The translations under genes were made by a program, and so were the position numbers. A stretch of DNA of 33,044 nt from Desulfomonile tiedjei (GTDB taxonomy: Bacteria > Desulfobacterota > Desulfomonilia > Desulfomonilales > Desulfomonilaceae), in the NCBI GenBank assembly GCA_016212935.1, contig JACRDE010000646.1, positions 1-33,044 of the forward strand. Reading direction: 5' to 3'. Below are positions 111 through 13,834 of the stretch, piece by piece; the stretch's first letter is position 1; each line of letters begins with the position of its first letter. Below the pieces are notes generated by a model. It was not told the DNA's origin and did not search any database. It saw nothing but the letters and a program-made list of their open reading frames with translations.

Positions 111-3038
111 CTAAGCTTTCATCCGAAAATACAATTTCGTGAACTCTTCAGTCACTGCCGGAATGAGCGCCAGGCCAAGCACCACCAGCCACTCATTAAG
201 ACTGAGAGCGTGAGTGTTGAACACGGGGTGCAGGTACGGCACGAAAACGGTTACACCCAGCAGTACAACGGAAAGCAGGACCGCCCACACCAGATAGGGG
301 TTTGAAAACGGGCCGATCTGGAATATCGAGAGCCGCTCTGACCGAACAGTAAAGGAACGGATCAGCTCGCACATGGACAGCGTGACAAAGGCCATGGTTT
401 CAGCCGTCTGCACATCCACACCGGTCCAGTTGTATTTGAATACAAACAGCAGGGGGCTAACATCGGCGGGAAGAGCGTTGGTCGCCTGCAGATGCCAGAT
501 GAGCCCCAAGACAAACGCCCCAAGCGTCGCTCCGGTTTGAGTGATCGTCTGTATCAGGATGCCTAGGCGCATGGGACCGTGGATGATGGGCTCAGTCTTG
601 GGCCGCGGCGGCTGATCCATCACGTCCGGGTCACCTTTCTCCTTGGCCAAAGCCAGGGCCGGCGCTCCATCAGTCACCAGATTGAGCCACAACAGCTGAA
701 TGGCCGTAAGCGGAGTGGGTAGGCCGAACAGAGTGGGCAAGAAAATGATCATGATCTCGGCCACGTTGGAGGAGAGCAGGAAAAACACAAACTTGCGGAT
801 GTTCGCGTAGATAATCCGCCCCTGCTCTACCGCGGCCACAATACTCACGTAATTGTCGTCGGTAAGTACCATGTCTGCAGTTTCTTTGGCCACGTCCGTG
901 CCCGTGATGCCCATGGCAACTCCGATATCGGCACGTTTGAGCGCGGGAGCGTCGTTCACACCGTCGCCCGTCATGGCCACGACCTCTCCCCTCTGCTTGA
1001 GCCCGTCGACGATGCGCATCTTGTGTTCCGGGTTGACCCGAGCAAAAACGTCGGTGGTCTCAAGAGCAGCAATGAGCCCCGCGCCGTCCAGTTTGTCCAG
1101 GGCGGCTCCAGCCATGACCTGGCGACCAGGGGTCAACAAACCGATGGACCGTCCTATGGCTGCGGCAGTGTCCGGGTAATCGCCGGTGATCATGATCGTC
1201 CGGATTCCCGCGCCCCGGGCGTTCTCGATGGCCGGGAGCACTTCGGGCCGGGCAGGGTCAATGATCCCGAATAGCCCCAAGAACACGAGGCTGTGCTCCA
1301 CGGCTGACGGCGTGATGTCGTCAGGGGGGGTGTCGGTAACTCGGTAAGATACCGCCAGTACTCGGAGTGCTTCGCGAGCCATTCCTTCGTTGGCCGACGC
1401 CATACGCAACCGCATGTCCTCGGTAAGCAGCGCGGGTTCGTCGTCAATCCGCTGATAATGGGTGCACAACTGCATGATCACATCCGGTGCGCCCTTGCAC
1501 ATAGTCACATACAGCTTTCCTGATCCACCGGAGTCATCGTGAAAGGGTCCTGGGTCGCTTTGCTTTGGAGCGACAACATCCAGAACGGTGGACATGCATT
1601 TACGTTCGGAGTCGAAGGGGATCTCGCAAACTCGCGGATACGCTCTCTCCAGCTTGGGCTTATGCGCTCCAGCTTTGGCAGCTGCCACGATCAAAGCGCC
1701 CTCCGTGGGGTCTCCTACCACACGGTAAGTCTCCATTTCCTCCGAAGTACCCGAAAATTCCAGATAAGCGTCGGAAGCGAGAACTCCTGCCCAAAGCGTT
1801 GTGAGGACTCCGGGGTATTTGGTCAGGTCCACAGGTTGCCCATTCAACGCAAAATCCCCTCGAGGTGCGTAACCTTCGCCACTCACGTTGAAAGCGTGGT
1901 CATCGACCCACAATCGAACTGCAGTCATCTGGTTCTGAGTGAGCGTTCCCGTCTTGTCGGAGCAAATGACGCTTGCCGAACCGAGGGTCTCAACCGCAGC
2001 CAAACGCCGGATGAGGGCATGTCTCCCTACCATTTCTCGCATGCCGAGTGCAAGAGTGATGGTGACTACGGCAGGCAGCCCTTCCGGCACCGCAGCGATT
2101 GCCAGGCTTACGGCAATAATGAAGAGCCCCGTGAGCAGGGAGGAGTACTGACTAAGGTACGCCAGGAAGCCGCCGTCCGGGGCCGTGATCAGGCCGAGGT
2201 TGGTCTGGTTGAATACAGCCACAAAGAACACAAGCGCGCATATGACAAGACAAGCGTATCCAAGTTGTCTTCCCAGTTGGTCCAGCCGCTGCTGCAGAGG
2301 CGTGGGTTCGGCCTCCAACGTCTGAAGCATCTCTGCAATGAGCCCCATCTGCGTGTGCATGCCGGTGGCTACTACGATCGCGCGGCCTCGACCGTACGTG
2401 ATCAGAGTGCCCATGAAGGCTGTGTTGAGACGGTCGCCCAGAGGAATATCGGCTTCCAAATTCACCTGGGCTTTCTTCTCCACAGGGACCGATTCCCCTG
2501 TCAGTGCCGCCTCTTCGATCCTCAGGTTGACAGACTCCACCAGCCTCACGTCTGCAGGCACGTAATTACCGGCCTCCAGGACTACTATGTCCCCAGGGAC
2601 GAGCTCACGACTGGGAATCGTTGTCCGAGAGCCGCCGCGAATCACGCTCGCATTGGGGGCCGCCATTTTCTTCAGCGCCGCGAGCGCCTCTTCGGCTTTC
2701 GATTCCTGAATCACGCCGATGATAGCATTAAGCAGCACTATGGCCATGATGGCCGCAGCCTCCACATAGTCACCAAGCAGGGCCGAGATCACGCTCGCCA
2801 CAACGAGCATCATCACCACGAAACTTTCAAACTGCTGCAGAACTAGTTTCCAAAACGGCGGTCGTGGGGCCTCGCGCAGCTCATTAGGCCCGACCTCCGC
2901 AAGACGTTTTTCGACGGCCTCGGGGGTGAGGCCGCGTTCCAAATGGGCAGAGAGCTTCTCCGCCACAGCCTCTGCTGAATGACTGTGCCAAGCTTCGCTT
3001 GCTAAGATGGTGTGTAGTTTTGGGCCCGTGGAAGACAT
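111..3038 (-). CDS. Cation-transporting P-type ATPase (Ca2+-ATPase-like, type II)
   Basis: 975 aa; DKTGTLT phosphorylation motif, [17 protein letters not shown] hinge, [15 protein letters not shown] in TM4; AGGAG SD 7 nt upstream of the start. Confidence 0.95.
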
Positions 3039-3848
3039 CCAGTGCTCCTAGTGTGAAGAATGTAAACAGCGCGACTGAATTGCGACTTAGAGGACGGGGG
3101 CAACGCCTTGAGCATGCATTTGGTCGAAGTTCATCCGTTGCCTGTAAGGCTCCAGCCTATTGACTCTCACGCAGCGGACTCAAGTACACTACTCGAGTGG
3201 GCATCAGCCTCGGGGGTAGCGCCAGCGAGCGTAAGGTTCAGATTTCGGCTTGGACAGCGGGGATTCGCCCATGCACCACGCGGTACCAAAGGGTGACCAG
3301 GACAAGCTACCGGAACTCTCCGGTGAGACGGGCTCCTGGCGCCGTCGACTATGGTCGATCTATGACCGCCTCTCAAGTCAACGCCGTTGTGTCGACCATT
3401 ATACCAAAGTTACCAAACCTGGCATCATTTTTGTCATCGTGCCGCACAGCGACGAAATTTGAGATAGCGAAAAGGGCCTGAGTAGTCATCCAACAAGGCT
3501 TCCGATGGGGGATTTTCAGGGAGGGGCTGGCGCCCGTGCTCGATCAATTGCATCATATGGTGGCTTATGATTCTTCTCTAGGCCCGGGATTCCAATCGCC
3601 GGACAACATAGCCTATCAGCCCCGACAGTGCGATAAGGGAGGGCGGTCTCTGAAATAGGTGCATGACCGCCTCCGTCACTGCAGAGAATGCGCCGGACAA
3701 TCAAGATTTCGGCGAAGGGTGGCCCCGAGCCCCACGGATTCCTACAGGCCTGATCATCAGGGATGACTCAACGCTTTCGCTGAGTCCCTTACACAGCGGA
3801 AGCTCGGGTCACACTTCATCGGCTTCTCGGAACCGTCACATACTCGCC

Positions 3849-5951: not shown

Positions 5952-6782
5952 CTAAATGCGGCAGTCCTTCTCAACAGCATAACCCTCCGCGGCAAGTATC
6001 CGACTGACTCCTACCACGTGTGGTACTCCCACGAAGACCGCTGCGCGTCCACGTTCCAGGTACTCTTGCATCTTTTCGCAGAAGATTGCGTCGCGCCGAT
6101 CAATTACATGCGGATTACGTGTGGGAAAGCCGTAGGGATTTCCCGCGATCGTGGCGAGATTTCCGTCCAAATACCATCGCATGAAATCCCCAGTATAAGA
6201 GTGCCAGGAATCAATTCTTCTCAAGAAGTCAGTCATCTGTTGACAGGAGAGGGACTCCAGTACCTGGATTTGCTCCTCGATGGTCTCCATGAACACAACC
6301 TTTTTCCCCAATTCGTTGGCGATTTGGTACGCTTCCATGTCAACGGAATGCTTCCAACCGTTCTTTCTGAGGTAGGCAGTATATATGGCGAAAAAGGCCA
6401 TCCATGGCTTCATTGTGCCAATGGTCCCGTCCAAGAAAGTCTTCGGCTCAAGGACAGGTTGCAGAGCATGGAAAGCCGCGAGCCGCGGCGCCTCAGGTCC
6501 GAGCACCTTAGCTATGGTTGAGAGAGTTTTTGCATCGAGCTCGTTTAAGAAATGATTTGCGTTTTGTTCTTGAATCCCGGCGGCTACGACTCTTTCCATA
6601 CTTGACGGGTCAAGTGGTCCTTCAAACAGTGCGGCTTCGGACTCCATGATTAATCGCGTGAGACACTTCCTGAAGCTGTGAGGAGAGAAATGAGCGGTAC
6701 CTACGAGAAACGACGAGCGGGCATCTTTCTTCAACCGCCAGACCATTCGCAATTCTTTTCTCCAGAGTCGTCTCCATAGCAT
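5952..6782 (-). CDS. TraB/GumN family protein
   Basis: FLVGTAHFSP motif near the N-terminus, EGPLD, VVFMETIEEQIQVLESLS, and C-terminal AAVFVGVPHVVGVSRILAAEGYAV match the TraB/GumN pattern. Confidence 0.8.
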   Translation of the reverse strand: MLWRRLWRKELRMVWRLKKDARSSFLVGTAHFSPHSFRKCLTRLIMESEAALFEGPLDPSSMERVVAAGIQEQNANHFLNELDAKTLSTIAKVLGPEAPRLAAFHALQPVLEPKTFLDGTIGTMKPWMAFFAIYTAYLRKNGWKHSVDMEAYQIANELGKKVVFMETIEEQIQVLESLSCQQMTDFLRRIDSWHSYTGDFMRWYLDGNLATIAGNPYGFPTRNPHVIDRRDAIFCEKMQEYLERGRAAVFVGVPHVVGVSRILAAEGYAVEKDCRI

Positions 6783-6800
6783 GAGTGTGCACCTCGGCCT

Positions 6801-7652
6801 TTATGACCGTCCAATACCGCCTACGACGGCATCCCAAAAGGAAGGTTTTCTCAACACCAACTCACACAGTTCGTAGGGCCTTGTGGGAATACCGCCCCAT
6901 TTTTCTTTGAATAACCGAATGCCGGCATTGACACCTATCCCGAGATGGATGAAGCGTTTGCCCAAGTTATCGCTGATCCTGATCATTTCGCTGACCAGCA
7001 GATCCGAGGCCCCTGGCAGGTAGTTCGTCTTTGAGTGACAGCCAATAACGTATGTAGCGAAGTTCTTCGGCGCAAGGTCCACAACAAAGAAGGCGGCCAG
7101 CTTGCGGTCTCTACTCCATGCATTCAATACCAGGCTGTCTTTTGCTCTTCCAACGTAATCCCACATTCTGAAAAGTAGCTCACGAATGCGAGGGGCTGGC
7201 GCAACCCGTTCCACAAATTCTCGGGCCAGCTCACGATTGGCTTCCTTCAACAATGTGGCCTGTTCAACCGTACCAGTTTCTTTCGCTTTTCTGACCATCC
7301 GCCCAAGGGTTCCAGTGGGCACCGCTGCCGGCAGATCAAGTGAATAGTAGCTGTCCGTGTTCCGTTCCACAAACGCCGCCTGAAACGACATTGGAGCTTG
7401 AGGCGCGATCAGAGATAAATTGATCGGTTGAAAGGCCTTTATTATCCTGCCCAGAGCTCGTTCAAAACGATCAAGTTCGAACTCGTGCTCCAGCGGGTAA
7501 CCTACGACAATGACACCGCTCTGCGTTTTACAGCACAGATAATCCTCGAACAGGAATGGCTCCCCTCCTGAAATCCTCGTCATAAGTTCAATGCTGTGTT
7601 CAGGCACGTATGCCCGGGCAAGAATCGCCTTTTCTTCTTCCTGGGTGATCAT
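6801..7652 (-). CDS. GNAT/FemAB-like acyltransferase-fold protein, paralog of the 8034-8882 product
   Basis: C-terminal YLPGASDLLVSEMIRISDNLGKRFIHLGIGVNAGIRLFKEKWGG. The ORF track extends to 7844, but alignment with the paralog supports Met at 7652 (MITQEEEKAILARAYVPEH). Confidence 0.65.
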   Translation of the reverse strand: MITQEEEKAILARAYVPEHSIELMTRISGGEPFLFEDYLCCKTQSGVIVVGYPLEHEFELDRFERALGRIIKAFQPINLSLIAPQAPMSFQAAFVERNTDSYYSLDLPAAVPTGTLGRMVRKAKETGTVEQATLLKEANRELAREFVERVAPAPRIRELLFRMWDYVGRAKDSLVLNAWSRDRKLAAFFVVDLAPKNFATYVIGCHSKTNYLPGASDLLVSEMIRISDNLGKRFIHLGIGVNAGIRLFKEKWGGIPTRPYELCELVLRKPSFWDAVVGGIGRS

Positions 7653-8033
7653 GGCTGTAACCGCTCTGGAATCCGGGTGCTCGACGCTTGTCGCACACAG
7701 GAACGGTAGACCCAAAAACAATTGTAGACGTCTAAGATAATCGTAACGTAAAGCCTGGAGCAGGTCAATCGGCTGAGGTAGCCGGGTCCGTGATATCGTT
7801 GCGCACTTAACATGGACATTATGCCCGATGGTCTGCCGCGCCAATTATCCGATTCCGAATGAGCGGGAATAGAATCGTCCGCCCGGCCTAACGGGCCGCA
7901 GAAGTTGACTCCGGTAAAGATGGGGACTAGAATAAAACTGCAACGAAATTAGGCGCATAATTGAAACAAGGGCCCTGAACAGAACCAGGGGCATTTGTGC
8001 CCTGCCCATACCGAGACGGACGCACGAATCCAA

Positions 8034-8882
8034 ATGCTCAGTCAACGGGAACGAGACATGGTCTACAGATACGCATACATCCCGGAACATCTTCCGGAAT
8101 ACGTCCAGGCCGTCTCGCTCGCAGAACCCCACATTCACGAAGGGTACTTATGTTTTCTCCGCGGCACGGTTCTTATATTCATTGGTTACCCGTTGCAACC
8201 AGCACCCTGTGAGCCTACCGACCAACTGCGCCTTGCGCTGGAATCAGCGTGTGACCATTTTCAACCACATACAGTCAGCGTCATTGCTCCTCGAATTCCG
8301 CCTGAAATTGACGGAACCGCATGTGGAAACGACCAATACTACCGGGTAGAGCTCCCTTTGGCGGCAATAAAGCCAAGCGAAGCATACATGTTGCGCCGGG
8401 CAGCCCGAGAGCTGAGCGTGAACGAAGCGGTGTTCGCTGAAGAGCACAGCGCGCTCATTGAGGCTTTCGTCTCGGAACGTATTCCCAGTTCCGCCCACCA
8501 GGAGATCTTTCGCAGTATATCACGTTACGCCGATTGCTCTCAGACGGCACGGCTGCTTGAAGCGCGAAAAGGCAGCGAACTGGCCGCATTCACAATCATG
8601 GACCTTGGTTCTGCAGACTACGGCTTCTATCTGTTCAATTTCAGATCCAGCACGCTTCACGTACCTGGCGCATCCGATCTGCTCTTTTGGGAAATGGCCG
8701 GGCTGGCATTCAAGGAAGGTAAGCGCCATTTGAACCTGGGGTTGGGCGTTAGTTCAGGCATCCAGAGGTTCAAGGAAAAATGGGGAGCCACTCCTTTTCT
8801 CCCGTACGGTTCGGTCACAATCCAAAGGAAGCCGCGTGGCCTGGTCGACATAATTCGAAGGATGTTAATGATCGTGACTTAG
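8034..8882 (+). CDS. GNAT/FemAB-like acyltransferase-fold protein, divergent paralog of the 6801-7652 product
   Basis: MLSQRERDMVYRYAYIPEH...HVPGASDLLFWEMAGLAFKEGKRHLNLGLGVSSGIQRFKEKWG is collinear with the neighbour. The ORF opens at 7995 (TTG). Confidence 0.65.
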   Translation: MLSQRERDMVYRYAYIPEHLPEYVQAVSLAEPHIHEGYLCFLRGTVLIFIGYPLQPAPCEPTDQLRLALESACDHFQPHTVSVIAPRIPPEIDGTACGNDQYYRVELPLAAIKPSEAYMLRRAARELSVNEAVFAEEHSALIEAFVSERIPSSAHQEIFRSISRYADCSQTARLLEARKGSELAAFTIMDLGSADYGFYLFNFRSSTLHVPGASDLLFWEMAGLAFKEGKRHLNLGLGVSSGIQRFKEKWGATPFLPYGSVTIQRKPRGLVDIIRRMLMIVT

Positions 8883-8990: not shown

Positions 8991-9734
8991 CTAATGCGAT
9001 GATGACCATTGCTTGAACTCCTCGACCACGTAGACCAGGTGTTCGCGCATGCAGGCCTCTGCGGCATCCGGATCTTGGTCGTGGATGGCCTGAAAAACTT
9101 TCAAGTGATGATCGAAAATTCTCTGTTGATGGTCCTTAGTTACGAATACTTGCTCCCGATGGATCCTAATGGAATAATTGACCCATTGATAAATGCTGCT
9201 CATCAGGTGCAGGAATATAGTGTTATGAGCGGCTGCGACGATCTCCGTATGGAATTTGAAGTCTATTTCATATCGTATGCGCCCCTTCTCAAAGTCATCT
9301 TCCATTTCATCCAGATAACCGCGCATACGGGCAAGCTCCTCTTCGGTTCTGTGCAGAGCCGCTTGCCTTGCCGCCCAGGTTTCCAAAAGGGCCCTAATTT
9401 CAGTTAGCTCCAGAACCCGAAGCCTGTCTGCCCCCAGAAACATCTCTATGGGCTTCAGAATCTCTTGCTCAGTGATGTTCTTAACGATCGTGCCGCCGCC
9501 GTGCACGATCTCCACTATTCCTTGAAGCTCCAATTGCTGAATCGCTTCGCGAATTGAAGGTCGGCTCACCCCCATCTGTTCGGCAAGTTCACGCTCAGAA
9601 GGGAGGCGCTCTCCTACTCTGAGGACTCCGTTGCTGATAGCCTTCTTCAGTTGATTGGCAACCTTCTGTGAGATGCGTTCCAATCGAATCGGTGTGAAGA
9701 GAGGTTCGGGGAGGTCATTATTTTGATTATTCAT
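8991..9734 (-). CDS. FadR/GntR-family transcriptional regulator (FCD domain)
   Basis: ISQKVANQLKKAISNGVLRVGERLPSERELAEQMGVSRPSIREAIQQLELQGIVE wHTH followed by an FCD-type helical C-terminal domain. Confidence 0.93.
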   Translation of the reverse strand: MNNQNNDLPEPLFTPIRLERISQKVANQLKKAISNGVLRVGERLPSERELAEQMGVSRPSIREAIQQLELQGIVEIVHGGGTIVKNITEQEILKPIEMFLGADRLRVLELTEIRALLETWAARQAALHRTEEELARMRGYLDEMEDDFEKGRIRYEIDFKFHTEIVAAAHNTIFLHLMSSIYQWVNYSIRIHREQVFVTKDHQQRIFDHHLKVFQAIHDQDPDAAEACMREHLVYVVEEFKQWSSSH

Positions 9735-10734: not shown

Positions 10735-11910
10735 ATGAAAAGAATCGCAGCGACATTGATTGCACTGGTAATGCTTCTAGTGTTTGGAAGCGTTACTGCA
10801 ACAAACTCTTCTGCCCAGGAGAAGAAACCGGACAAGAAAATCGAGAAATTCGGCGAGGACCAGAGAGTCAAAGAGTGGAAAGGCAAGAAATGGACTACGT
10901 CAGACAAGAAAATTACGTGGCGTGCCAGCGATCCCTGGGGCGGTCTGATCTTTCACGATTTCTTGGTTCATTTCGCTGACAGCGTCAGAGCTGCGAGCGG
11001 CGGACGGCTTGACATCAAAGTGTTTCAGACGGGCGCCATTGTCCCTGCAATGGAAGTCTTCGATGCAGTATCAAAAGGCACTCTTGATTGCGGTCATGCC
11101 TGGTCGGGTTACTGGAAAGGCAAGAATGAGGCGTTCGTAGCGTTTGCTTCTGTGCCGTTCGGACTGGATGTCGAGGGATACAACATTTGGTACTACGAGC
11201 GTGGCGGCGCAAAAATGTTGAATGACCTGTATGCTCCTCACAACATGGTCTCTTTCTTCTGCGGCAATGCCGGTCAGGAACTCGGAATTCATTCCAACAA
11301 GAAAGCGGTCAAGATGGAGGATTTCAAAGGGATGAAACTCCGGACCGTCGGATGGTACCAGGATATTCTCAACCTGCTTGGGGCCAACGTCACACCTCTT
11401 CCCGGTCCTGAAATCTACTTGGCCCTTGAGAGAGGCGTCATCGACGGATGTGAGTTCAGCAGCCCCGCTATCAACCTCCCGCAAGGCTATCACGAAATCA
11501 CAAAATACGTTATCGAACCCGGCGTGCACCAACCCAGCGTTCAGACCGACGTCTTCATCAACAAGAAGAAATGGGAAGAGCTCCCGGACGACCTGAAAGC
11601 AATCGTAGAGATCTGCGCGAAGGAGACCCAACTCTGGGCATGGGCATGGATAGAGAACCTCAATGTCGAGGCAATTGAAAAGATGGGCAAGAAGGTGGAA
11701 TACGTACAGATGGACGATGCCACCATCATAGAATTTGCCAAAATCTCTAAGAAGTACCTCGACGATCTGGCTGCCAAGAATCCGGATGTCAAGAAGGTTA
11801 TGGATTCGCAGGAAAAGTTCAAGAAGGACTTTGCACCGTGGCGCAAGATGCGTGGAGGCGTGGCGCCTTGGCCCTATGAGATGGTCATTGACGGGAAGTT
11901 GTACCAGTAA
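10735..11910 (+). CDS. dctP: TRAP transporter substrate-binding protein (DctP family)
   Basis: Signal peptide; DIKVFQTGAIVPAMEVFDAVSKGTLDCGHAWSGYWKGKN, GMKLRTVGWYQDILNLLGANVTPLPGPEIYLALERGVIDGCEFSSP; followed by dctQM. Confidence 0.93.
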   Translation: MKRIAATLIALVMLLVFGSVTATNSSAQEKKPDKKIEKFGEDQRVKEWKGKKWTTSDKKITWRASDPWGGLIFHDFLVHFADSVRAASGGRLDIKVFQTGAIVPAMEVFDAVSKGTLDCGHAWSGYWKGKNEAFVAFASVPFGLDVEGYNIWYYERGGAKMLNDLYAPHNMVSFFCGNAGQELGIHSNKKAVKMEDFKGMKLRTVGWYQDILNLLGANVTPLPGPEIYLALERGVIDGCEFSSPAINLPQGYHEITKYVIEPGVHQPSVQTDVFINKKKWEELPDDLKAIVEICAKETQLWAWAWIENLNVEAIEKMGKKVEYVQMDDATIIEFAKISKKYLDDLAAKNPDVKKVMDSQEKFKKDFAPWRKMRGGVAPWPYEMVIDGKLYQ

Positions 11911-11941
11911 AACGATAACCTTTTCAGAGAGAACTGTTCGC

Positions 11942-11969
11942 GCCCCGGAGAACGCAGATGCTCCGGGGC
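11942..11969 (+). other. GC-rich stem-loop in the dctP-dctQ intergenic region
   Basis: GCCCCGGAG (11942-11950), 10-nt loop, CTCCGGGGC (11961-11969): 9-bp perfect stem with no U-tract. Confidence 0.6.
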
Positions 11970-12005
11970 CTACAGAACAATCGGTGTACGGGAAGGGAAA
12001 CGGCG

Positions 12006-12506
12006 ATGAAAAAGTTCGTCCGCGCGGTCGACGCGTTTAACGAATTCTTCGGTAGATATGTGGCACTACTGATTTTGCCTCTGGTCTTTGTGGTTTGCTA
12101 CGAGGTTGTAGCCAGGAAACTATTTCGGTCTCCCACCATTTGGGCCTTTGAGGTTACGGTATGGCTGTACGGTGCTCACTTTTTGCTTGGCGCAGCATAC
12201 ACGTACCTCCACGATCGTCACGTTCGGATAGACATATTGTCACAAAAACTTCCGAGCAGGGTTCAGGTCTGGTTATCGATTATCACCTTTGTCTTCATAT
12301 TCGTTCCTTTTGTCGGATGCCTCAGTTACGCAGCGGTAATGTACGCCGCCCACTCATGGGCAGGATGGGAACATAGCTGGAGCGCCTGGAAGCCCCCTCT
12401 GTATCTTTATAAGACCGTGATGCCCGTTGGATTGATCCTGTTATTCGTTCAGGGCCTGGCCAAGTTCGTAAGAGATATTTACAGACTCAAGGGGGAAGAA
12501 ATATGA
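12006..12506 (+). CDS. dctQ: TRAP transporter small permease (DctQ family)
   Basis: About 4 TM helices, FEVTVWLYGAHFLLGAAYTYLHDRHVRIDILSQKLP; its stop overlaps the dctM start. Confidence 0.92.
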   Translation: MKKFVRAVDAFNEFFGRYVALLILPLVFVVCYEVVARKLFRSPTIWAFEVTVWLYGAHFLLGAAYTYLHDRHVRIDILSQKLPSRVQVWLSIITFVFIFVPFVGCLSYAAVMYAAHSWAGWEHSWSAWKPPLYLYKTVMPVGLILLFVQGLAKFVRDIYRLKGEEI

Positions 12507-13834
12507 ATCCTGAAACCGTTGCCCTGTTCATGTTCGGGACCCTTTTCGTGGTCCTCTTCCTGGGACACCCCCTTGCCTTTTCCCTGGGTGCCACTGCCGT
12601 ACTTTACGGCTTGATCGGCTGGGGCGGGTCGCCGGATCAGATTTTCGGAATATTTGCAAACAAGACGTACGGTGTCATGGAGGAGTACGTCCTGGTCGCT
12701 GTGCCATTGTTCATTTTTATGGCACAAATGCTGGACGCTTCGGGCGTGGCAGAGAAGCTTTTTCACACTATGCACGTCCTCTGGGGACCTGTTCGGGGAG
12801 GACTTGGCATAGCCGTAGTCATGGTGTGCACGGTATTTGCCGCATCAACCGGAGTGGTGGGTGCTACCGAGGTCGCCATAGGACTTCTTGCCGCGCCGAA
12901 CCTTCTCAAACGGGGATACGACATACCAATGACAGCCGGATGCATCTGCGCAGGCGGAACCCTGGGGATTCTCATCCCGCCGAGTATCATGCTGGTCGTC
13001 TACGGCGGCTTGACGAACATATCCGTGGGCAAATTGTTCGCTGCCGCGATGCTCCCTGGCCTTACTCTGTCGGCCCTATACATGACCTACATAGCTGTCC
13101 GGTGCGGATTGAATCCTGAGATGGGACCGCCTTTGCCGAAGGAAGAGCGAACCCATACAGTCAAACAGAAAATGTATATGATACTAACCTCGCTTGTCCC
13201 TCCCATGTTTCTTATTCTCATGGTCCTTGGGAGCATCGTAGCCGGAGTCGCAACCACAACAGAGGCTGCGGGCCTTGGAGCTTTGGGGGCGACAATTCTC
13301 GCTCTTGTTTATGGCCGTTTGACATGGGACGCAATCGTGGACGCCTCTACGTCCACGCTGAAGATCACAAGCATGGTTATGGTGCTATTTCTTGGAGGAA
13401 ACGCGTTCCAATCTATCTTCATGGGACTTGGAGGGGGCGATTCCGTTTCCAGCCTTCTGCTGGGTCTCGAGGTCAGCCCGTATGCGGTTCTCTTCATAAT
13501 GATGGGGATCGTCTTTTTCCTCGGAATGTTCATCGATTGGCTGGGTATCCTTTTGATAGTGATCCCGGTATTTACTCCGGTGGCACAAGAACTGGGTTTC
13601 GATCCGCTGTGGTTCGGGACTCTCATCTGTGTGAATTTGCAGATGGCCTTCCTCACGCCTCCGTTCGGGTATTCGCTGTTTTACCTGAGGGGAATAGCTC
13701 CGCCGGAAATGACAATGGGGCTCATCTACAAGGGAGTCGTGCCATTCATTTGTCTCCAGTGGGTAGGGTTGATTGCTTGTATCGTATATCCTCCGCTGGT
13801 AATGTATCTACCGACAGCGCTCTTCGGAGAATGA
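12503..13834 (+). CDS. dctM: TRAP transporter large permease (DctM family)
   Basis: 443 aa polytopic; FMAQMLDASGVAEKLF, GGTLGILIPPSIMLVVYG, FLTPPFGYSLFYLRGIAP. Confidence 0.95.
   Translation: MNPETVALFMFGTLFVVLFLGHPLAFSLGATAVLYGLIGWGGSPDQIFGIFANKTYGVMEEYVLVAVPLFIFMAQMLDASGVAEKLFHTMHVLWGPVRGGLGIAVVMVCTVFAASTGVVGATEVAIGLLAAPNLLKRGYDIPMTAGCICAGGTLGILIPPSIMLVVYGGLTNISVGKLFAAAMLPGLTLSALYMTYIAVRCGLNPEMGPPLPKEERTHTVKQKMYMILTSLVPPMFLILMVLGSIVAGVATTTEAAGLGALGATILALVYGRLTWDAIVDASTSTLKITSMVMVLFLGGNAFQSIFMGLGGGDSVSSLLLGLEVSPYAVLFIMMGIVFFLGMFIDWLGILLIVIPVFTPVAQELGFDPLWFGTLICVNLQMAFLTPPFGYSLFYLRGIAPPEMTMGLIYKGVVPFICLQWVGLIACIVYPPLVMYLPTALFGE

Follow-up and report, generated by a model that had tools for sequence, protein, structure and literature searches.

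A putative gene module combining paired tandem-GNAT transferases, a TraB-family protein and a radical-SAM protein in Desulfomonile tiedjei and other, mostly sulfate-reducing, bacteria

The stretch of DNA analysed here (the window) comprises 33,044 nucleotides of contig JACRDE010000646.1 from Desulfomonile tiedjei. It harbours two divergently oriented paralogous genes, designated A and B, and a TraB-family gene downstream of A; a fourth gene, D, which adjoins B in most related loci, is found on a different contig of the same genome. The layout is as follows.

5952-6782, minus strand: TraB/PrgY/GumN (TIKI-type) gene, ATG start, 276 aa, assigned by its PF01963 match
6783-6800: gap of 18 bp between A and the TraB gene downstream of it, read directly
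6801-7652, minus strand: gene A, ATG start, 283 aa, tandem-GNAT (FemX/LPG-synthase-type) transferase, assigned by fold and family alignment
7653-8033: divergent A/B intergenic region of 381 bp, read directly
8034-8882, plus strand: gene B, ATG start, 282 aa, paralogue of A from the same transferase superfamily
L081:243-2165 (contig C350, outside the window), plus strand: gene D of the window genome, 60% identity, E 7.4e-165

Direct reading confirmed the coordinates and strands that a preceding sequence-only reading had given for A, B and TraB, together with the TraB-A spacing and the intergenic region from which A and B diverge. Longer frames starting from TTG extend upstream to 7844 for A and to 7995 for B; relatives, however, begin at the Met of the ATG starts given here. 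The A/B gap contains one promoter-like site per strand (7905-7933 on the plus and 7768-7740 on the minus strand), with such sites being near the chance level region-wide (4 found versus 2.2 expected). The position after B, where relatives have D, is occupied in the window by a gene for a GntR/FCD-type regulator (8991-9734). This is followed at 10735-13834 by what appears by eye to be a TRAP-type transporter set (a solute-binding protein and membrane subunits), which looks unrelated to the module.

The A and B proteins are full-length paralogues (34% identity over 262 aa, BLASTP E 2e-45), a similarity far beyond chance that upholds the collinear paralogy perceived earlier. The motifs singled out at that time as shared by the two proteins, i.e. 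YxPEH...YL, P(G/H)xSDLL, GK...NLGLGV and FKxKWG, are indeed present and conserved across families, with the exception of a C-terminal 'PY', which is not strictly kept: in A only the Tyr is conserved, and in B the position is variable. No Pfam or NCBIfam model matches the window A, and the window B yields a weak GNAT match only, so the initial guess that the two are GNAT/FemAB-like N-acyltransferases needed a test. Members of both families match PF09924, PF13480 and ATE_C weakly. The commonest Pfam match among B relatives is PF09924 (LPG_synthase_C, DUF2156), recovered by 21 of 36 of them at E<0.1 with a best value of 4.8e-7, and the most frequent one for A is PF13480. The PF09924 gathering cut-off of 27.5 bits is not reached, the window A and B being unmatched and relatives scored individually attaining only 16-19 bits; indeed, all individually scored family matches of A/B relatives fall under the curated cut-offs. 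Searches of PDB sequences with A, B and combined profiles returned nothing useful. The window A and B reach no curated cut-off, and none of the libraries searched has a family dedicated to them. As a side observation, the B gene of genome G199 is broken into two pieces (L059:6591-7357), reflecting a frameshift or an assembly error.

An AlphaFold2 model of A (pLDDT 93.2) is a tandem GNAT, in keeping with the initial guess, and its best PDB match according to Foldseek is L-PGS (4v36, E 2.5e-12), followed by FemX (1ne9, E 6.2e-12). L-PGS, FemX, DUF2156 proteins, MprF and Sbb17 (9wqx, 286 residues, E 7.6e-10) rank above acetyl-CoA enzymes. The top 25 matches comprise LPGS, FemX, MprF, Sbb17 and the uncharacterised 2hqy, which together with 3frm is the exception to the tRNA-dependent enzymes in the top ranks. 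The architecture of two fused GNAT halves with a substrate cleft between them is evident for A from the model and the Foldseek matches, and for B by homology. Furthermore, a Phe-Lys pair in the C-terminal half (F248-K249 in A, F246-K247 in B) is invariant in every row of both families, the A alignment comprising 37 sequences. Lys305 has been named as the catalytic residue of FemX, and in DhpH-C Lys329 is essential with Phe328 contributing (review, PMC12945691). The Phe-Lys pair of A and B probably matches the FemX Lys305 site. Since it is invariant in A as well as in B, both copies look active, which speaks to the earlier question of whether each of them had retained catalytic residues. Fold and motif together make the assignment of A and B to the FemX/LPGS-type transferase class well supported and, in our opinion, probable.

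One might alternatively view A and B as acyl-CoA-dependent tandem GNAT acetyltransferases (compare the clavulanate-pathway tandem GNAT and glucosamine N-acetyltransferase) acylating a peptide or an amino sugar, with TraB and D acting in the same pathway. Acetyl-CoA tandem GNATs do match the A model (2wpw, E 5.8e-9; 6wqb, VipF, E 5.5e-9), and the prevalence of PF13480 among the Pfam matches of A would agree with this. However, the top Foldseek ranks are held by tRNA-dependent enzymes (save for the two exceptions mentioned), LPG_synthase_C is the commonest match of B, the invariant Phe-Lys pair fits the tRNA-dependent class, and the canonical pyrophosphate loop (Q/RxxGxG/A) is not evident in the invariant columns, so we regard acyl-CoA dependence as unlikely, if still worth considering.

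Even within the FemX/LPGS-type class, A and B stand apart from the characterised enzymes. They share the tandem-GNAT fold with FemX from Weissella viridescens (1ne9/4ii9), yet exhibit only ~14% identity to it, are ~50 residues shorter, and occur as a pair accompanied by TraB. Unlike LPGS and MprF, whose transferase domain (PF09924) includes the best fold match of A, they are devoid of a membrane domain and have TraB and radical-SAM partners. A further group comprises the aminoacyl-tRNA-dependent peptide synthases of antibiotic pathways (Sbb17/Sba18, DhpH-C, VlmA and Orf11), stand-alone tandem GNATs of the same size as A, for one of which (DhpH-C) a Phe-Lys pair as in A/B has been reported; identity to Sbb17/Sba18 is, however, just 13-17%. 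The TraB and radical-SAM partners also set A and B apart from these antibiotic-pathway enzymes.

The TraB protein of the window is a firm member of its family (PF01963, E 2.8e-31; score 109.8 bits, cut-off 26.8). Its residues G28xxH31 (GTxH), E54, E166 and G252xxH255 are invariant in all 36 rows of the alignment and resemble the 2His/2Glu set of TIKI peptidases (PMC6254334). The TraB model (pLDDT 89) finds weak fold matches in the PDB, the sole one returned by Foldseek being a Tetrahymena complex IV subunit. The protein shares its Pfam membership and the GxxH...E...GxxH pattern with the TIKI/TraB/PrgY/GumN hydrolases (PF01963; e.g. VvRRSP and Tiki), but it differs from them in being genetically tied to a transferase and in having no solved close relative. 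As far as we know, bacterial TraB proteins have scarcely been tested for catalytic activity.

A protein search revealed A/B in 25 of the 297 genomes of the window's phylum, usually as two copies, and closer relatives provided further loci. In Nitrospirota, reached via Thermodesulfovibrio contigs, nine of 198 genomes are strong A/B carriers, and a genome set centred on G331, an apparent further phylum, returned the same genomes. Among the 38 genomes with usable sequence after A, TraB is the next gene on the same strand or is fused to A in 35, spanning two phyla; the concern that the adjacency of TraB might be unique to the window genome is thus dispelled. The three exceptions are G333, where the order is A-B-TraB, and two Thermodesulfovibrio genomes in which TraB lies elsewhere. 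A and TraB reside on one polypeptide in eight genomes (with a TraB remnant only in G052), and mapping these fusions onto the tree requires two changes, one in a clade of the window's phylum and one in G491 (Nitrospirota), a pattern we read as two independent origins of the fusion. The case of G052 (L069:5453-7429) is peculiar: a single ORF joins A to an N-terminal stretch of TraB and a C-terminal stretch of D, B is gone, and the radical-SAM cluster motif is missing. This ORF is a deletion relic and fits the ancestral gene order. Two Nitrospirota genomes, G352 and G361, carry two TraB genes in the order A-TraB-B-TraB-D (L118:168-4631 and L117:4884-9366), as if there were one TraB partner per transferase.

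Gene D encodes a 350-420-aa protein and lies directly 3' of B in most loci, B-D adjacency being the rule in most Desulfobacterota-type loci. In the relatives both PF04055 (Radical_SAM) and PF13186 (SPASM) score over the cut-off in all four D proteins examined, and a CxxxCxxC motif can be read in D sequences. A profile of D also locates it near B in G235, G138, G256, G255, G276 and G218, and in G300 B and D are fused into one 711-aa protein (L075 9813-11948). The D gene of the window genome is well separated from other candidates, as the second-best radical-SAM protein reaches just 5e-14; of the two domains only PF04055 is listed for it (55 bits). A short-chain dehydrogenase (PF00106, E 6e-48) is fused in front of this D, and the neighbouring ORF (2668-3162) encodes transposase-type helix-turn-helix domains, which suggests that a rearrangement moved D away from B in this genome. 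The Thermodesulfovibrio group and G020/G094 (f22) either lack D or have it at an unlinked site. As some carriers are missing D, the core consists of A, B and TraB, with D being a frequent but not obligatory fourth member. The sequence-only reading had rightly sketched this core; it could not show D, the transporter and dsr links described below, or the second TraB in two genomes.

The nearest NCBIfam models of D are the maturases TIGR04317 (tungsten cofactor oxidoreductase; 157 bits, cut-off 380) and TIGR04311 (150 bits, cut-off 400), which have the same domain order, yet D scores well under both cut-offs. We did not notice a gene for an aldehyde oxidoreductase in the vicinity of D. The radical-SAM core of D also matches prokaryotic viperin models weakly (E 5e-19), which could hint at an anti-phage or antimicrobial module. 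We find this extremely improbable: D scores 139-157 bits to metalloenzyme-maturase models against 67 to viperin, PADLOC has no match for A, B or TraB, and the genes, which diverge together and are present in small genomes, match no plasmid. An identity of D with prokaryotic viperins was rejected, the 67-69 bits to pVip stemming from the shared radical-SAM core only and no defence neighbours being noticed, and so was a plasmid-borne nature of the module, in view of the lack of a plasmid match.

In a maximum-likelihood tree of 74 sequences, in which the first gene of G024 counts as A in accordance with its position, the A and B sequences are split by a single branch with 100/100 support. Accordingly, the pair is older than the lineages sampled, unless it was passed among them as a unit. 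This settles the earlier question of a recent duplication versus an ancient pair in favour of the latter, the single split across two phyla ruling out a recent tandem-inverted duplication. Between-genome distances correlate for A and B (r=0.85), A and TraB (0.71), B and TraB (0.71) and B and D (0.69); none of 2000 permutations reached any of these correlations, although the figures are uncorrected for species descent. The fusions and the joint conservation of the genes make it highly probable that the module functions as a unit.

Several other genes recur in the neighbourhood. A YeiH-like carrier (PF03601) adjoins the locus or D in eleven loci, including those of the Nitrospirota genomes G333, G352 and G361. 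Carriers of this kind ('putative sulfate exporter') accompany the module in both phyla, in L055, L061, L142, L143, L146, L116, L117 and L118. Where tested, the PF03601 carriers score far under the TIGR00698 cut-off, and those linked to the module are possibly a distinct carrier family. In addition, dsrAB is located ~1-8 kb from the module in G298, G081/LaPlata and G177/G125, five genomes that belong to three families. A rough binomial estimate, assuming 15 independent lineages and per-lineage probabilities, gives 3e-7 for chance linkage of the carrier and 4e-4 for that of dsr, so linkage by chance is unlikely.

The carrier, being a membrane protein, and L-PGS as the best fold match of A would both be compatible with A and B aminoacylating a membrane lipid in the manner of MprF/LPGS, with TraB removing the amino acid. 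This scenario is nevertheless improbable, given that A and B are without the MprF membrane domain and that known lipid aminoacylation gives a radical-SAM partner no role. Nor do we know of any aminoacyl-PG hydrolase that is a TraB protein.

The proximity to dsrAB raises another possibility, namely that the module modifies or matures the Dsr machinery (DsrAB/DsrC or an associated metalloenzyme), with TraB clipping, A and B adding residues and D carrying out a radical modification. A dsrA gene over the cut-off is present in 22 of 25 A/B-bearing genomes of the window's phylum versus 121 of 272 lacking A/B (p=2e-5), and the models nearest to D, both matched under cut-off, describe metalloenzyme maturases. 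On the other hand, most loci are not beside dsr, and the excess of dsrA largely follows lineage: read family by family, genomes without A/B usually have dsrA too, and in Nitrospirota the difference (6/9 with versus 78/189 without A/B) is not significant (p=0.12), with dsrA over the cut-off absent from the A/B-bearing G333, G352 and G361. We consequently reject a strict tie to sulfate reduction and deem a Dsr-directed role quite unlikely. The module occurs mostly in sulfate-reducing lineages, sometimes beside dsr, and is not shown to serve dsr.

Some further neighbours are recorded here in their own right. NF038143 (HYxxLL) proteins are encoded near the module or dsrA, often in tandem (L052:6944-8183, L067:2438-3037, G093 C259 and G199 C151). 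They were discarded as a core partner, as they are adjacent in three loci but occur in only 5/25 genomes with A/B versus 6/272 without, and are accessory at most. In one family, two small genomes have radical-SAM genes that by eye are AhbC/AhbD-like (siroheme-dependent haem synthesis) immediately upstream of the module (L063:4813-7929 and L070:5023-8137). Neither a dedicated aminoacyl-tRNA synthetase, among the neighbours looked at, nor murein genes nearby were noticed. A RiPP cluster with a precursor peptide was set aside, since a reading of the sampled gene orders brought up no conserved small ORF within or next to the closely packed A-T-B-D genes.

We propose that the window locus accounts for most of a four-protein module, A-TraB-B-D, in which tRNA-dependent addition of amino acids would be combined with radical modification by D and hydrolysis or editing by TraB; we see about an even chance that this proposal is correct. 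A and B would be two non-interchangeable tandem-GNAT transferases of the FemX/LPG-synthase/aminoacyl-tRNA-dependent peptide-synthase class, each using a charged tRNA as amino acid donor and attaching the residue to an amine of the substrate, a small molecule or protein held between the two GNAT halves, with the invariant Lys helping. With two ligases, the module would probably carry out two additions, either in succession or of different kinds. D, as a member of the radical-SAM/SPASM family, would then modify the aminoacylated or peptidic product, TraB, as a TIKI-type hydrolase physically tied to A, would cleave or edit this product or a protein bearing it, and the nearby YeiH-like membrane carrier may move the product. 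We infer tRNA dependence, the order of the steps and the action of TraB on the same product. The idea of a 'synthesis/processing pair', put forward when only the window sequence had been inspected, remains a plausible hypothesis.

While the parts of the module each belong to known superfamilies, the pairing of FemX/LPGS-type ligases with TraB and a radical-SAM protein matches no described system that we found. We encountered no description of the combination in Pfam, NCBIfam, PADLOC or the literature covered, subscription journals falling mostly outside it. Going a step further, and only tentatively, the module might represent a previously unknown tRNA-dependent, ribosome-independent peptide-building pathway with two ligases, a radical-SAM rearrangement, TraB-mediated release and a YeiH-like carrier, which would build on a metabolite or a Dsr-related protein and yield a cofactor, carrier or signal of anaerobic sulfur metabolism. 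If so, such a pathway would be conserved in mostly sulfate-reducing bacteria from two phyla. Some of the A/B carriers are probably in culture, namely those with a single-contig Nitrospirota genome of 2.00 Mb and with a genome of 6.50 Mb from the window's own genus, which makes metabolite comparison practical. For TraB, a family with a largely open role in bacteria, the module supplies a concrete partner that apparently became fused to it in two separate events, which permits a direct search for its substrate. The recurrent proximity of the module to dsrAB and to the PF03601 carrier suggests that the gene set for sulfate reduction has a side branch so far unrecognised.
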